A DNA stretch of 64,000 nt from a virus: the IMG/VR virus record IMGVR_UViG_3300022745_000017, positions 62,001 to 126,000 of that record; one strand, given 5' to 3'. Position 1 is the stretch's first letter. Every line of letters starts with the position of its first letter. Made by a program: the position numbers and the translations under genes. Under the pieces are notes generated by a model. That model saw nothing but the letters and a program-made list of their open reading frames with translations, was not told the origin of the DNA and did no database searches. This document shows, piece after piece, positions 5,089-62,643 of the stretch.

Positions 5089-5109
5089 TTATGCCCATTA
5101 TATTTCAAA

Positions 5110-5119
5110 CACATATCAC
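5110..5119 (+). promoter_or_regulatory. Early-promoter-like motif CACATATCAC
   Basis: Exact CACATATCAC, 61 bases before the ATG at 5171 and just after the upstream hairpin. It is one of about a dozen copies in the window in front of accessory operons. Confidence 0.6.
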
Positions 5120-5123
5120 TCTT

Positions 5124-5149
5124 GTGAGCACATGGGTAACTGTGCTTAC
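5124..5149 (+). promoter_or_regulatory. Leader hairpin
   Basis: Arms 5124-5132 and 5141-5149 form 9 bp with one G-U pair and the loop TGGGTAAC, starting five bases after the promoter-like motif. A second small stem (TTACT/AGTAA) sits immediately before the ribosome site. The leader is structured, but it is not the pseudoknot seen at 5820. Confidence 0.45.
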
Positions 5150-5170
5150 TTACTGTAGTAAAGGAAGAAA

Positions 5171-5731
5171 ATGCGAAATCTAAATTGCACTATTGATGTC
5201 TCATATTTTAGTGATGTTAGTGGTCCCGCGCCCTGGCTGTTACCTCATCTGGACTGCGGCATGGGATCTATTCTGCGACTACCTCTTACCGAAGTTATGT
5301 TTCCAAAGATGAGAAGTGCTGCGATTGACTTTCAGCAGAGTCTCATCAAAGGCAATGCGCTAGACGCCGTGGGGAAAATTCTCTTATGCCTAAATGAATG
5401 GGATGAGATTGAAATCTCTGCTTACGCAACGGTTGGATATAGTTGGTTAGCTAGTTGCTATGCTAAAACACAGAGTGTGGCTGACAAGTTTCTAGTGAGT
5501 GGGCAGTATATTCGCAAGGAGCTATCTGATTATTACAACCATATTTACGCTGTGTGGCGCGATAAACAAACCAATGATGAAACAATAGAGAGTCTGTACA
5601 ACCGTGTTGGGAAGGCGCTTCGAAATATGTTGTTCATGGTCTATACCCTGACCAACAACAATGAAGCGCTGGCGACTACGCTTATGGGGGAGTATGTAGA
5701 TACCCTAGCTGAGCAATTAGCCAAAGCGTAA
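5171..5731 (+). CDS. Hypothetical protein, single-gene early unit
   Basis: 186 residues, start after AAAGGAAG. Mixed helical protein with no signal peptide, membrane segment or recognised catalytic motif; the C-terminal half is helical (SLYNRVGKALRNMLFMVYTL). It stands alone between a CACATATCAC motif with a leader hairpin upstream and a strong hairpin downstream, so it is a monocistronic unit. That layout is typical of early host-takeover genes in this window; the product is unknown. Confidence 0.75.
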   Translation: MRNLNCTIDVSYFSDVSGPAPWLLPHLDCGMGSILRLPLTEVMFPKMRSAAIDFQQSLIKGNALDAVGKILLCLNEWDEIEISAYATVGYSWLASCYAKTQSVADKFLVSGQYIRKELSDYYNHIYAVWRDKQTNDETIESLYNRVGKALRNMLFMVYTLTNNNEALATTLMGEYVDTLAEQLAKA

Positions 5732-5776: not shown

Positions 5777-5805
5777 TGACTTATTTGATCCTATTTTTCT
5801 TCAGT

Positions 5806-5815
5806 CACATATATC
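5806..5815 (+). promoter_or_regulatory. Early-promoter-like motif CACATATATC
   Basis: CACATATATC followed directly by the conserved pseudoknot leader of the 5879 gene. The same TCAGTCACATATATCG context is repeated at 59457. Confidence 0.6.
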
Positions 5816-5819
5816 GGTA

Positions 5820-5871
5820 GTGAGTTGGTAATGATGCTACGCTGACTCATATCCTTTAATGCATCAAGGAG
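5820..5871 (+). promoter_or_regulatory. Predicted H-type pseudoknot leader, copy A
   Basis: Stem 1 pairs 5821-5828 with 5842-5849 (with G-U pairs at two inner positions). Its loop holds TGATGC at 5832-5837, which is perfectly complementary to GCATCA at 5861-5866. That second segment abuts and shares one base with the Shine-Dalgarno AAGGAG (5866-5871) of the gene starting at 5879. Two other copies in the window have different stem bases but keep the pairing. Formation of the second helix would be expected to affect ribosome access. Confidence 0.65.
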
Positions 5872-5878
5872 TTCTATC

Positions 5879-6322
5879 ATGGCTACAAAGTTTTCCCTGA
5901 GTGCAGCAGACTTCTGCTTGTCTGAAGAGCAAATCGCTGCTGTCAATCTGACCGTGGAAATGGGAAGCGAGGCTTCGGCCCGCTTCCATCAGAAGTACGC
6001 TGCTTTGCGAGTGGTGCTCTTGCCGGCATTTGTGCCGGCGCGTTTGAAGGCCCTGCGTGATGTCGGTGTCCAAGCCGTCCCCGTGGAAGCAGGCACAATT
6101 GAAGTGCACCTTCCACTCATCGCATGGCTGAAGGCCAGTCCTAGCTGGGATGTGCCGGCAGTGCCAGCCCCATCGAGCCGGGGTTACACTCGGTCTACGA
6201 CCACTTCACTCGGTGAAGTGGTTACAGTCATTGTGGTCGCTGCGGTGTGTTACGCCGCCATCTTCTACATCGCGCGCGGCATCGTCCGCGCGCTCGACGG
6301 TGAGCATGACCGAGCAGCCTGA
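5879..6322 (+). CDS. Small protein with C-terminal membrane anchor
   Basis: 147 residues, start after AAGGAG. The first hundred residues are soluble and unrecognised. A single hydrophobic helix (VVTVIVVAAVCYAAIFYIA) at about residues 112-130 is followed by a short tail with R-D-E residues, so the protein is probably tail-anchored in the host inner membrane. It is the only gene between a CACATATATC motif with the pseudoknot leader and a double terminator. The leader, shared with a Nudix hydrolase and a 32-residue peptide, suggests that the three are regulated together. Function unknown. Confidence 0.75.
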   Translation: MATKFSLSAADFCLSEEQIAAVNLTVEMGSEASARFHQKYAALRVVLLPAFVPARLKALRDVGVQAVPVEAGTIEVHLPLIAWLKASPSWDVPAVPAPSSRGYTRSTTTSLGEVVTVIVVAAVCYAAIFYIARGIVRALDGEHDRAA

Positions 6323-12613: not shown

Positions 12614-12961
12614 ATGATCACCCGTTTTACGATCTTCATACACACCCCCGAGTCAAAGACACTTGTGGAACAGCTCCCTGATGGTATTTCTCTGAGTTAT
12701 CCAGAAGTGCTGATGGACAGCCAGGCTGACTTAGAGACGTTCTTGATCAAAGACTTAGGTATCCCGAAGGCTGCCGAAATTGCTTGGTTCAATGATGCTT
12801 TTTGTATGGTTCACATTCGTGTCGACCCGTCGGTAAACCAGATGCTGGCTTTGCGCAAGTATTGGCCTGACATCGCTGGCTTACCGTGGGATGATGCTAG
12901 GACACGCCGGTTTGTACATCGCCCAATTGACCTCACTAAGAAGAATAGTTCGAACCTATAA
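12614..12961 (+). CDS. Hypothetical protein
   Basis: 115 residues from ATG 12614, after GAGGATAGG; a longer in-frame start at 12560 would overlap the previous gene and has no ribosome site. Small alpha/beta protein ending in a basic tail, no recognised motif. It ends the operon; the stop is ten bases before the next promoter-like motif. Confidence 0.65.
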   Translation: MITRFTIFIHTPESKTLVEQLPDGISLSYPEVLMDSQADLETFLIKDLGIPKAAEIAWFNDAFCMVHIRVDPSVNQMLALRKYWPDIAGLPWDDARTRRFVHRPIDLTKKNSSNL

Positions 12962-12970
12962 AAACACAGT

Positions 12971-12980
12971 CACATATGCC
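12971..12980 (+). promoter_or_regulatory. Early-promoter-like motif CACATATGCC
   Basis: A variant copy (CAGTCACATATGCC) in front of pseudoknot leader B, at the same place relative to the leader as at 5806 and 59461. Confidence 0.5.
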
Positions 12981-12983
12981 GTT

Positions 12984-13037
12984 AGTGACTTGAGTAATGA
13001 TGCTAGCTTGAGTCACTCACTAATGTGCATCACGGAG
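12984..13037 (+). promoter_or_regulatory. Predicted H-type pseudoknot leader, copy B
   Basis: Stem 1 pairs 12984-12994 with 13007-13017 (11 bp including two G-U). The loop TGATGC at 12998-13003 is perfectly complementary to GCATCA at 13027-13032, immediately before GGAGA of the Nudix gene. Relative to copy A, one stem pair is swapped from G-C to C-G with pairing kept. Confidence 0.65.
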
Positions 13038-13043
13038 ATAGAT

Positions 13044-13469
13044 ATGGCTAAGAAAGAGTTGGTTCGTGTGCGAGCTTTCCTTCAAAACGAAGAGGGTAAG
13101 TATCTCGTACTGTACCGCAAGTACAGTGAAAAGAAGGTGATCATGTGCCTGCCGGGTGGTGGCGTGGAAGAGGGTGAAGATCCCCTGCAAGCGTTGCACC
13201 GCGAGGTGCAAGAAGAAGTATCGTTACGGCTGAAAAGCCCGGTACACATCGGTGATCATTGTGTGCCAGGCGCGTATGAAGGGTATGAGAATACCCGATT
13301 TAGCTTCTATAGCGCGGGATGGGATGGGGAAGTCTTCATGCCACCCCAAGAGGTGGCTAAGCACGCCGGCTACGAATGGCTCACTAAATCTGAGATCGAG
13401 TGGGGTGGGGCGCTTAAGGTGGGGCGCTGTACCGAATATGGGCACGGCATTCTGTCGATGTTGGCTTAA
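13044..13469 (+). CDS. Nudix hydrolase
   Basis: 141 residues from ATG 13044, after GGAGAT; longer frames start upstream of the leader and are not credible. The Nudix box is complete: GGVEEGEDPLQALHREVQEE fits G-x5-E-x7-R-E-U-x-E-E, within a typical MutT-size protein (residues about 40-62). Such enzymes cleave nucleoside diphosphates linked to another group: damaged dNTPs, NAD-type compounds, (p)ppGpp or the 5' end of mRNA. The substrate cannot be told from sequence. It is a single-gene unit under the pseudoknot leader, closed by an 18-bp terminator. Confidence 0.85.
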   Translation: MAKKELVRVRAFLQNEEGKYLVLYRKYSEKKVIMCLPGGGVEEGEDPLQALHREVQEEVSLRLKSPVHIGDHCVPGAYEGYENTRFSFYSAGWDGEVFMPPQEVAKHAGYEWLTKSEIEWGGALKVGRCTEYGHGILSMLA

Positions 13470-47987: not shown

Positions 47988-47997
47988 CACATATCAC
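47988..47997 (+). promoter_or_regulatory. Early-promoter-like motif CACATATCAC
   Basis: Exact copy; its last three bases are the start of a 14-bp hairpin. Confidence 0.6.
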
Positions 47998-48036
47998 TCA
48001 CTTGGTGCGGTCGCGCAGACATGCACCAAGTGAGTG
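47995..48036 (+). promoter_or_regulatory. 14-bp hairpin overlapping the promoter-like motif
   Basis: Arms 47995-48008 and 48023-48036 with a 14-base loop. If transcription starts at the end of the motif, the RNA begins with this stem. Confidence 0.5.
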
Positions 48037-48077
48037 TTTAGCTCATTTATTTTCTACCCCTGTAAGAAGGATTAACA

Positions 48078-49385
48078 ATGTTCGAATTGATCAAAGAATA
48101 CCCCACCCTCTCTGCTGCGATTGGTATGGCCAGTGTCACCGTCATCGGGATGGGTCGGCAGTTTCTAACCATGGCGGTCAGTAAGTTGTCGGGCTTGTAT
48201 AAACACGAGTTTAGCATCGACAGCGACAATGTGCTGTTTTCAAGCCTGCTTCAATATATCAAGGAAAATGTGCGCGGCGTTCGCAGCTTTAAGGTGACTA
48301 ACTTTTTCGCTGGAGATATGGTAGCCCACGGCAACTGGATTACAAATGATTTTGAATATCGTGAATTGGTCGTTAACTTAATACCTGAGAATATAGCCGG
48401 TATTTTGCGATTAGGCGGTGTTTTATACATCATTCGTGTTAGTGCTACTGAGTCTCGGATTGCCGGCACAGGAACAAATTCTTTAACCACGCAGAAAACA
48501 CGTATTACAATTACCGCTTTCACCAGTGACCTGGAAAAAGCTAAACTCATATTTGAACAGGTAAATAATCGTAATCGGGCGCGTGAATCAAAAGCATTGA
48601 AATACTGTAACTCAAAAGGTGCAATTTATATCCTAAGGGATCAAAACGTGAGAGAGCGCAAGAATCTCCGCCACTTTGAAAATTTAGCAGTAAAGGCATG
48701 CATCACGGAGGAGCTCATCGCTGACATTCGCAAGTTCATGGATGCACAAGATACCTATCATCGCACTGGCTGTACATGGAAGCGTATTTATCTGCTGCAC
48801 GGTCCTAGCGGCACTGGCAAGACTTCTTTGGCGATGGCAGCAGCAAACCATTTCAGAAGTGATATTTACTATATCCAGATGGGCTTGATCAGAAGTGGTA
48901 GCTTCAGTGAAACACTCAACCAGTGTGGGAAATTTAAGTTCATCCTGATTGATGACATCACTTCATCTGGGCTTGACTTGTCTGACAGCGAAGAGTCGGT
49001 TAAAGCGAGCGAAAGCTTACTGCTAAGACAACCAACCTTGGCTGAGATCTTGACAGGTCTGGACGGCCCCGATAGCCCTGAAGCACAAATCATCTTCATC
49101 ACCACTAACCACATCAATCGCTTGTCGGATAACTTTGTTCGCACAGGTCGCATCGACAAAGCGTTCTTGATTGGCAATGCTGGTCAAGAAGAGCAACGCA
49201 AGATCGCTGCGATGTACTACGATACGGTAGTTCCAGGGGTAGATGCATATATCAAGCCTTCTCGCGTGGTAGAGATCGTTCGAAGCGCAGAGAGTGCTGA
49301 GCAGGCTCAAGCTGCACTGGAGGTGGAGGTCGTCAATAACCCAGGGATCGGGTACGAGCAAGAATACACGGTCAAGCTGGACTAA
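48078..49385 (+). CDS. BCS1-like membrane AAA ATPase, copy 1
   Basis: 435 residues, start after AGAAGGATT. One membrane helix at about residues 12-34, then a beta-rich middle domain of about 150 residues, then the AAA module. Walker A is HGPSGTGKTS (241-250), Walker B FILIDD (288-293), sensor N344 in TTN, and arginine fingers lie in VRTGRID (R355, R358). The order (helix, middle domain, AAA, W-R-R/K before Walker A) is that of mitochondrial BCS1, which moves folded proteins across a membrane. The P of the usual RPGR is changed to T. A close paralog is at 52660. The phage role is unknown; handling of a folded protein at the inner membrane is inferred. Confidence 0.8.
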   Translation: MFELIKEYPTLSAAIGMASVTVIGMGRQFLTMAVSKLSGLYKHEFSIDSDNVLFSSLLQYIKENVRGVRSFKVTNFFAGDMVAHGNWITNDFEYRELVVNLIPENIAGILRLGGVLYIIRVSATESRIAGTGTNSLTTQKTRITITAFTSDLEKAKLIFEQVNNRNRARESKALKYCNSKGAIYILRDQNVRERKNLRHFENLAVKACITEELIADIRKFMDAQDTYHRTGCTWKRIYLLHGPSGTGKTSLAMAAANHFRSDIYYIQMGLIRSGSFSETLNQCGKFKFILIDDITSSGLDLSDSEESVKASESLLLRQPTLAEILTGLDGPDSPEAQIIFITTNHINRLSDNFVRTGRIDKAFLIGNAGQEEQRKIAAMYYDTVVPGVDAYIKPSRVVEIVRSAESAEQAQAALEVEVVNNPGIGYEQEYTVKLD

Positions 49386-59444: not shown

Positions 59445-59460
59445 TACAGTTTTCTTCAGT

Positions 59461-59470
59461 CACATATATC
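59461..59470 (+). promoter_or_regulatory. Early-promoter-like motif CACATATATC
   Basis: TTCAGTCACATATATCG, the same 17 bases as at 5800, in front of pseudoknot leader C. Confidence 0.6.
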
Positions 59471-59473
59471 GTC

Positions 59474-59526
59474 AGTGTGTTAGTGATGATGCTAATCTGA
59501 CACACTCCTTTATCTGCATCGTGGAG
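59474..59526 (+). promoter_or_regulatory. Predicted H-type pseudoknot leader, copy C
   Basis: Stem 1 pairs 59474-59483 with 59497-59506 (10 bp, one G-U). Loop GATGC at 59488-59492 pairs with GCATC at 59516-59520, directly before GTGGAG. Compared with copies A and B, an A-T stem pair has become T-A and a G-U has become A-T, with pairing kept. Confidence 0.65.
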
Positions 59527-59532
59527 ATTGAA

Positions 59533-59631
59533 ATGAAAAACGTACTGATTACCGCAAGCCTGGTCAACGTGCTGACCAAGTTGACGGGTTGGTGGCTGGA
59601 GCTAGGCTGGGACGGTGAGTGGTGTACGTGA
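59533..59631 (+). CDS. 32-residue Trp-rich peptide
   Basis: MKNVLITASLVNVLTKLTGW then WLELGWDGEWCT, after GTGGAG. An amphipathic N-terminal helix and four Trp. It has a full private transcription unit (promoter-like motif, pseudoknot leader, intrinsic terminator), which argues that this very small product is real. Possibly membrane-active or a small inhibitor; unknown. Confidence 0.6.
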   Translation: MKNVLITASLVNVLTKLTGWWLELGWDGEWCT

Positions 59632-61791: not shown

Positions 61792-62643
61792 ATGGAAAAA
61801 CCAGTCATTGGTACTGAAATCGGCCAATACCTGTTTGGTGTGTATCACAACGGCGATGATGTGCGTGTCAAGCTGTTTGTGCAAATCCCTCCCAATGGGG
61901 CCGATGAAAACAAAGAAGGTGTTTGGCTGGATGAGCATACAGAGCTGCTGTACAAACTCACTCTTAAAGACATCGGTGGTCCTGCTGTTTTCCGCCGTGT
62001 TAATCAAGATGGTGAAGATTACTACACACCGCTCTTGTCCGATTTTGAGCGTGATGATGTCAAGGCTGCCATCATTGCACTAGCCACTTCTGCTCAGGTT
62101 TCTTACTCGCAAAAGTCACTAGCAGAAGCACTGACTGCTTGCTATAGCCACTACGCTGATTACGTCTACATGCTCTCGCAGTCTCGTCAAAGTACACCTG
62201 AAAAACAGGATGATGATGTCTGTTTGCCCATTGATTACCCACGTCTTGTCGACGTGTATGGAATTGGCAAGGAGCTGGTGCTGGTGGACGCCTCTGGCAA
62301 GACAATCCCAGAAAAGACAAGTCAGCGGTTTGTAGGCGTGATTACATCGGCACAGATCTTTACCAGTGTCAAGCAAAATGGTACGCTAATGATGCTAGAC
62401 GCACCATATGTGCGTTTTACGGCATCAAAAAAGGTCGGCCACGAACCGAGCTTTGTCGCACTGGTTCGACTTAACACCACAGCACACCCTGGGGCCGATC
62501 AGGTTTGCTGGGAAGACGCCAATGTCGAGGAAGACTACTGGGCCGATGCTCGCCAGTACCTTTGGCTAATGGGCAATAAAAATCCAGTTCTCAAGAACAT
62601 CAGGACAGAAAATCCCGGTGTTGACTGGAGTGTCTGGCAATGA
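61792..62643 (+). CDS. Hypothetical protein, IGxxxGQ family member 1
   Basis: 283 residues from ATG 61792, after TGGAGCG. N-terminus VIGTEIGQYLFGVYH then VKLFVQIP is echoed by the partial gene at 63900 (VIGEQVGQCLL, IFLFQRLP). The middle is mixed; no known domain. It overlaps the next gene by four bases. Confidence 0.65.
   Translation: MEKPVIGTEIGQYLFGVYHNGDDVRVKLFVQIPPNGADENKEGVWLDEHTELLYKLTLKDIGGPAVFRRVNQDGEDYYTPLLSDFERDDVKAAIIALATSAQVSYSQKSLAEALTACYSHYADYVYMLSQSRQSTPEKQDDDVCLPIDYPRLVDVYGIGKELVLVDASGKTIPEKTSQRFVGVITSAQIFTSVKQNGTLMMLDAPYVRFTASKKVGHEPSFVALVRLNTTAHPGADQVCWEDANVEEDYWADARQYLWLMGNKNPVLKNIRTENPGVDWSVWQ

Follow-up and report, generated by a model that had tools for sequence, protein, structure and literature searches.

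At least 13 genes of a jumbo phage carry a common leader that almost certainly folds into an H-type pseudoknot kept by selection, as judged from paired changes in both of its stems. The knot follows a probable early promoter and ends against the Shine-Dalgarno (SD) sequence. Three of the leaders are located in the window, i.e., the whole stretch of DNA analysed (64,000 nucleotides, bases 62001-126000 of the 217,973-bp, or 218 kb, virus record), and at least ten are found elsewhere in the genome (Table 1). The element can be regarded as a cis-acting leader of an early regulon, which would act on translation start and/or on 5' stability through a proposed mechanism and a putative trans factor.

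Judged by gene content, the phage is a nucleus-forming phiKZ-like jumbo phage (Chimalliviridae, defined here by chimallin together with phage multisubunit RNA polymerases), since its genome encodes a 646-aa chimallin (PF25677, E 1.6e-11; phrog_4795, E 1.6e-27), a phiKZ-type DNA polymerase and RNA polymerase subunits, RNA polymerase beta homologues among them, and homologues of phiKZ PicA and of the non-virion RNA polymerase subunits in phiKZ order. At the level of protein identity, the genome is distant from every GenBank phage searched. Among these phages, the best match of the DNA polymerase is Burkholderia phage FLC9 (46% identity), which is also the sole match of the chimallin (25%).

Copies of the Leader

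Gapped alignment of the window's three leaders gives the common order CAGTCACATAT, stem, (T)GATGC loop, GCATC, SD and ATG, and together with the sequence itself bears out the three places and the shared order of elements proposed in a sequence-only reading of this DNA. That reading listed three copies, and the genome holds at least 13. The pattern GATGCTA-N8-30-GCATC is found four times in the window, where 0.24 would be expected; the leaders account for three of these places, and the fourth (62391) is not associated with the leader architecture.

A search of the rest of the genome yielded a fourth copy at 137492 with a plan nearly identical to that of the window's three. The covariance model seeded on these four copies returned nine further places at E <= 4.4e-5 (one duplicate from overlapping loci not counted), eight of which have the pseudoknot. 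The ninth (156959; L012:11359-11439), which belongs to the promoter match at 156970 (21 bits), is a 10-bp hairpin TAGTGTACCA/TGGTACACTA that lacks a partner for the second stem. With the four-copy model, 12 of the 13 copies reach E <= 7e-7; the copy at 127068 reaches only E = 5.7 and was counted by inspection, the full arrangement being present despite this value. Many of the copies lie at 126-146 kb.

The geometry of the element was also searched for blind to sequence on both strands of the genome, requiring a first stem of at least 8 bp, set loop lengths, a second stem of 5 bp and an SD within 4 nt. Eight of the ten hits were leaders, and two Markov randomisations of the sequence gave 2 and 0 hits. 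When ten other phage records were scanned in the same way, each had 0-6 hits, and no hit was a listed promoter-linked leader.

Table 1. Features of the three pseudoknot leaders of the window (S1 and S2, first and second stem) and of their genes. Positions are those of the window; the last row gives genome coordinates.
Feature	Position	Strand	Basis
Copy 1, early promoter: upstream CTATTTTTCTTCAG, core TCACATATAT (5805-5814)	5791-5819	+	Matrix score 46.4; motif also in other jumbo phages
Copy 1, S1 5' strand GTGAGTTGGT	5820-5829	+	Fold, S1 covariation
Copy 1, S2 5' strand GATGC, within hairpin loop	5833-5837	+	S2 covariation, 13 copies
Copy 1, S1 3' strand GCTGACTCAT	5841-5850	+	Fold, S1 covariation
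Copy 1, S2 3' strand GCATC	5861-5865	+	S2 covariation, fold
Copy 1, SD AAGGAG; GG starts 2 nt past S2	5866-5871	+	Sequence, spacing
Gene 1: 147-aa protein, C-terminal hydrophobic segment (tail-anchor-like), no family match	5879-6322	+	Tail anchor: sequence reading only
Copy 2, early promoter, core TCACATATGC (12970-12979)	12956-12983	+	Matrix score 29.6
Copy 2, S1 5' strand AGTGACTTGAGT	12984-12995	+	Fold, S1 covariation
Copy 2, S2 5' strand GATGC	12999-13003	+	Pattern scan, S2 covariation
Copy 2, S1 3' strand GCTTGAGTCACT	13006-13017	+	Fold, S1 covariation
Copy 2, S2 3' strand GCATC	13027-13031	+	Pattern scan, S2 covariation
Copy 2, SD GGAG	13034-13037	+	Sequence
Gene 2: 141-aa Nudix hydrolase	13044-13469	+	PF00293 E 1.4e-15; phrog_1198
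Copy 3, early promoter, core TCACATATAT (59460-59469)	59446-59473	+	Matrix score 41.1
Copy 3, S1 5' strand AGTGTGTTAG	59474-59483	+	Fold, S1 covariation
Copy 3, S2 5' strand GATGC	59488-59492	+	Pattern scan, S2 covariation
Copy 3, S1 3' strand CTGACACACT	59497-59506	+	Fold, S1 covariation
Copy 3, S2 3' strand GCATC	59516-59520	+	Pattern scan, S2 covariation
Copy 3, SD GGAG	59523-59526	+	Sequence
Gene 3: 32-aa peptide, no family match	59533-59631	+	Sequence, family search
The 13 copies in the genome	20111, 27233, 67796, 74961, 121451, 126548, 127068, 129996, 136897, 137492, 138410, 139195, 145734		

Pseudoknot Architecture and Covariation

All 13 copies have the arrangement of an H-type pseudoknot, in which S1 closes a loop and S2 is formed by this loop and a downstream segment, followed by the SD and the start codon. 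S1 was folded with the S2 residues held unpaired and the rest of the leader free to fold; the lengths and spacings given here vary with the fold adopted for a copy. S1 has about 8-12 bp in most copies (8-9 bp in two, and 10-12 bp in most others and in the window's three, where 7 bp had been proposed before) and is shorter or interrupted in four (145734 and, with interruptions, 20111, 27233 and 139195). S2 has 5 bp, or 4 bp in 145734 only, and those 5-bp versions that are all Watson-Crick have a strength of -7.8 to -9.9 kcal/mol. Loop L1 is 3 nt long in 9 of the 13 copies, L2 has 2-4 nt in most copies and L3 mostly 6-10 nt. Both L1 and L2 have conserved unpaired residues.

The knot had been thought to cover the ribosome site. 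In the fold model, the SD is unpaired and outside any helix, and S2 ends exactly 2 nt ahead of the SD GG in 8 of the 13 copies, so that the knot abuts the site. Repression is therefore not implied by the fold. In copies 1 and 3, the SD could form a hairpin with a pyrimidine stretch in L3; since this pairing is not conserved, an anti-SD switch was dropped.

Genome-wide, S2 occurs as GATGC/GCATC, GATGT/ACATC, GGTGT/ACACC, AGTGC/GCACT and GGTGC/GCACT. Standard pairs occupy 64 of its 65 cells (98.5%) against 88.4% after shuffling, a value matched in none of 500 shuffles. Ten cells are changed on both sides against 3.5 in the shuffles (0 of 500), which keep the relatedness of the copies, these being paralogues in one genome. 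Independent events are therefore fewer than the cell count; yet three of the five S2 pairs (1, 2 and 5) covary with both sides changed. Pair 1 is G-C in 10 copies and A-U, G-U or unpaired in one copy each, pair 2 is A-U in 8 and G-C in 5, and pair 5 is C-G in 9 and U-A in 4. The covariation score of S2 lies above all 500 shuffles, and the signal is gone when the partner is slid by 1-3 columns.

The outer seven pairs of S1 in nine copies are 100% standard against 76% with the 3' strands swapped between copies (0 of 5000 swaps), the strands having been taken from folds and hence biased toward pairing. In the paralogous gene pair 136897/138410, the sequences of both stems differ while the pairing is kept. 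The covariation reported earlier for the window's copies concerned S1, with its paired changes. S2 is invariant in these three copies, which therefore give no evidence of its covariation; it covaries only across the genome. The central claim, that an H-type pseudoknot adjoining the ribosome site is conserved, is upheld at sequence level by 13 copies in which both stems covary. Compensatory changes had been expected in further copies from relatives. They were found in further copies of the same genome, whereas no relative examined clearly has the knot, so that the support is drawn from paralogues within a single genome.

A Probable Early Promoter

The CACATAT motif, previously taken as part of the leader structure, is the -10-like core of a probable early promoter and lies outside the folded RNA. 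The promoter matrix was trained on the 13 copies from 22 bases upstream through the core. In the genome, these 13 score 28-46 bits, followed by 156970 at 21 and the next site at 15, whereas in shuffled genomes 0-2 sites exceed 9 and no site exceeds 11. The knot is present behind all 13 promoter matches above 28 bits, the matrix having been built from those 13.

The promoter motif is conserved upstream of the 13 genes and in relatives. TTCAGTCACATATA is found upstream of genes in several jumbo-size IMG/VR contigs as well, and motifs related to TTTCAG....ATATA stand ahead of genes in SURPRISE13 and SNUABM_54, commonly with TGA downstream at matching spacing. Early promoters of jumbo phages are AT-rich motifs centred near -10 (review, PMC7598289), which puts the predicted start of transcription roughly at the first S1 base; the knot would then form the 5' end of the mRNA. 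The early timing of these messages is likewise a prediction.

Weaker promoter variants in the genome, the one of chimallin included, precede other leaders, usually hairpins. The second variant ACATATCA (chimallin's included) is followed by hairpins or other leaders and never by the knot. The knot is therefore not needed for early expression as such.

Individual sites of this kind are as follows. The chimallin gene (L009:2607-2682) has the promoter variant CCCACATATCACCCTTATGA and no pseudoknot leader. The gene just upstream of copy 1 (5104-5171) has the variant ACATATCACTCTTGTGAG and a hairpin GTGAGCACA/TGTGCTTAC, also with no pseudoknot. At 47989-48080, a ACATATCA promoter-like site is followed by the strong hairpin TCACTTGGTG/CACCAAGTGA (MFE -26 kcal/mol), an SD and ATG.

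Downstream Genes

The Nudix hydrolase read earlier behind copy 2 is confirmed by family searches (Table 1). Protein searches with three of the downstream genes found no relatives in phages. Elsewhere in the genome, two neighbouring HExxH paralogues (HEAVH and HELCH; L011:11180-11638 and L011:12687-13205) have a pseudoknot leader each. This pair, with leaders at 136897 and 138410, is the only paralogous one among the downstream genes (blastp E 1e-7, phmmer about 1e-8). One target has two H-x-T-like motifs and, on a reading of its sequence only, resembles 2H phosphoesterases. The remaining targets have about 115-290 aa and no family match above the cut-off. No pathway shared by the targets is visible. 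A second Nudix-type ORF of 66 aa, apparently truncated or frameshifted, is located in the 136-kb region (L005:375-575).

Leaders in Related Phages

Model R1 found no convincing copy in FLC9, Noxifer, SNUABM_54, SURPRISE13, LucasX, phiKZ or the record of L036; its weak matches in jumbo phages pointed to the common promoter. In the 209-kb IMG/VR phage G004, a hairpin of the TAGAAGC/GTTTCTA type stands five times behind the same promoter (L232, L235, L237, L239 and L240), with G-U, G-C and A-U variants. The G004 hairpins are a second lineage-specific family of early leaders. Other hairpins follow the same promoter in G009, G010 and G014. The mean folding z of the leaders is -2.0 in G004, -3.1 in G009 and -0.3 in SURPRISE13, which has little structure. 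A candidate GGTTG/CAACT knot lies ahead of an SD at 62545 in G009 (p = 0.04, uncorrected).

Exact-pattern scans of IMG/VR for GATGC/GCATC-SD and GGTGT/ACACC-SD gave only matches lacking the promoter or the full architecture, and a stricter promoter-plus-stem pattern gave zero matches there. A looser version of this pattern matched G004 only, which was ruled out, its leaders being plain hairpins. A match in a bacterial assembly (L288) has no knot and reads as coding sequence. With the leader as blastn query, GenBank phages yielded no more than weak partial matches, and no pseudoknot leader of jumbo phages was found in the literature (open-licence papers). Since relatives carry other leaders behind the same promoter, the knot can, on present evidence, be read as this lineage's elaboration of a plan of promoter plus 5' structure.

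Possible Function

The first messages of nucleus-forming phages are made in a membrane vesicle and have to get to the ribosomes of the host at a stage when the phage nucleus has not yet formed. One structured leader on at least 13 predicted early messages is a concrete handle on this step, and the same knot at the ribosome site of many early messages suggests a shared RNA switch or tag.

An even chance is given to the reading that the element is the standard leader of early genes, bound by a factor, which acts in cis as a gate on translation start and adds protection of the 5' end. The CACATAT promoter would probably be read by the injected virion RNA polymerase, and with a start at about the first S1 base the early mRNA would open with a 5'-terminal H-type pseudoknot. 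The S2 helix against the SD may gate 30S loading. A factor that is encoded by the phage or associated with the ribosome probably acts at the knot; through this factor, host-takeover genes could be tuned or shut off as a group. The knot could also close the 5' end of the mRNA against decay. More tentatively, control might be regulon-wide: one phage or host factor would recognise the 5'-terminal knot and switch translation of the early host-takeover messages together, related phages having their own diverging leaders behind the common early promoter. The likelihoods given here and below are judgements, and the readings overlap somewhat.

It is rather unlikely that the leader is a constitutive 5' stabiliser, in which the stem-knot only blocks 5'-end-dependent decay and keeps the SD single-stranded, with neither regulation nor a partner. 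The start predicted at the first S1 base agrees with such a role, and so do the plain hairpins behind several other promoters of this genome and of relatives, as if any 5' structure sufficed. A plain hairpin would then do, however, yet a second crossing helix of similar strength is kept, mostly at the same SD spacing, and folding is weak in some relatives such as SURPRISE13.

ChmC and gp014-type factors occur in this virus family (PMC12908238, PMC11849849), which would favour a tag on phage messages: a phage protein, e.g., a ChmC-type RNA-binding or ribosome-associated early protein, would recognise the knot for export or preferential translation. Chimallin and the other early promoter variants lack this tag, and neither a binder nor a ChmC homologue was identified in this analysis. 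A tag of this kind is therefore improbable, although the knot is used regulon-wide on unrelated genes and this promoter precedes leader types in related phages that are peculiar to them, as expected of a co-evolving recogniser.

A riboswitch had been among the options named before. A new class responding to a metabolite is very unlikely, as the genes behind the leaders are not related to one another and no match to an Rfam family was obtained, either at gathering score in the window or at a relaxed threshold over the leaders of four copies. The lack of a common pathway among the thirteen genes argues against it and for a class-wide element, and the tie of the leader to one promoter type also speaks against a riboswitch. 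H-type knots adjoining the SD are a known riboswitch form, and the conserved unpaired residues of L1 and L2 and the Nudix hydrolase among the targets would be in keeping with it.

Slighter still is the chance that ribosomes entering at the S2 5' strand open the knot. This strand reads [A/G]UG plus a Leu codon in 12 of the 13 copies, 11 copies have a stop in this frame within the leader, and the S2 change from C to T is silent (CTA/TTA). Yet there is no good SD, the start lies enclosed in the knot close to the 5' end, the lengths are inconsistent, with two copies staying open, and transitions through G-U in S2 would give an identical pattern, possibly as a by-product. N4 uses promoter hairpins, in which a repeat upstream of the start is read as DNA. 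An element of double-stranded or extruded DNA, recognised either by the virion RNA polymerase or by a repressor, is equally hard to credit here: in each copy, dyads do directly follow the promoter core, and the promoters of relatives also commonly have the (G)TGA with which S1 starts, but the repeats stand downstream and not upstream of the core, the SD spacing would be meaningless, and two crossing complementarities kept by pairing rather than by sequence are expected of single-stranded RNA and not of a protein operator.

Comparison with Known Systems

The promoter of the leader shares an AT-rich core, here upstream of predicted early genes, with the phiKZ-type early promoters of the virion RNA polymerase. 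TTCAG....ATATA is common to this genome and other jumbo phages, and a (G)TGA commonly follows it at a similar distance. In the jumbo-phage relatives examined, only the promoter is present and the knot is not, one uncertain case apart. A pseudoknot also forms the translational operator of E. coli rpsO (S15) (PMC3014915); unlike the present leader, it serves a single cellular gene, is autogenous and has an unrelated sequence. In the timP mRNA, a pseudoknot is essential for translation initiation (PMC11228461). This is, however, an enterobacterial type I toxin mRNA controlled by an antisense RNA, with the knot placed between two stem-loops.

The nearest precedent is the leader pseudoknot of T4 gene 32. 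It had been overlooked in the sequence-only claim that no phage element of this form is described; a regulon-wide, promoter-tied version, however, did not turn up in the open-licence papers searched. As in the present case, the gene 32 leaders of T4, T2 and RB69 have an H-type knot with coaxial stems upstream of the ribosome binding site in the 5' leader of a phage mRNA, and the T2 structure is known by NMR (PMC3014915). A 2010 review regarded this leader as possibly the sole viral pseudoknot used for translational autoregulation (PMC3014915). The gene 32 operator controls a single gene, its knot lies 67 nt upstream of the start codon, and the product of the gene itself binds, with a separate A+U-rich binding stretch. 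In contrast, the leader described here precedes at least 13 genes, unrelated except for one pair, with the knot directly against the SD and linked to an early promoter. An autogenous operator of the gene 32 type does not fit these targets, which are Nudix, HExxH-containing and small proteins, none of the downstream proteins matching the single-strand-binding-protein family. If the proposed role is true, the translational pseudoknot of phages would be extended from one gene to a regulon.
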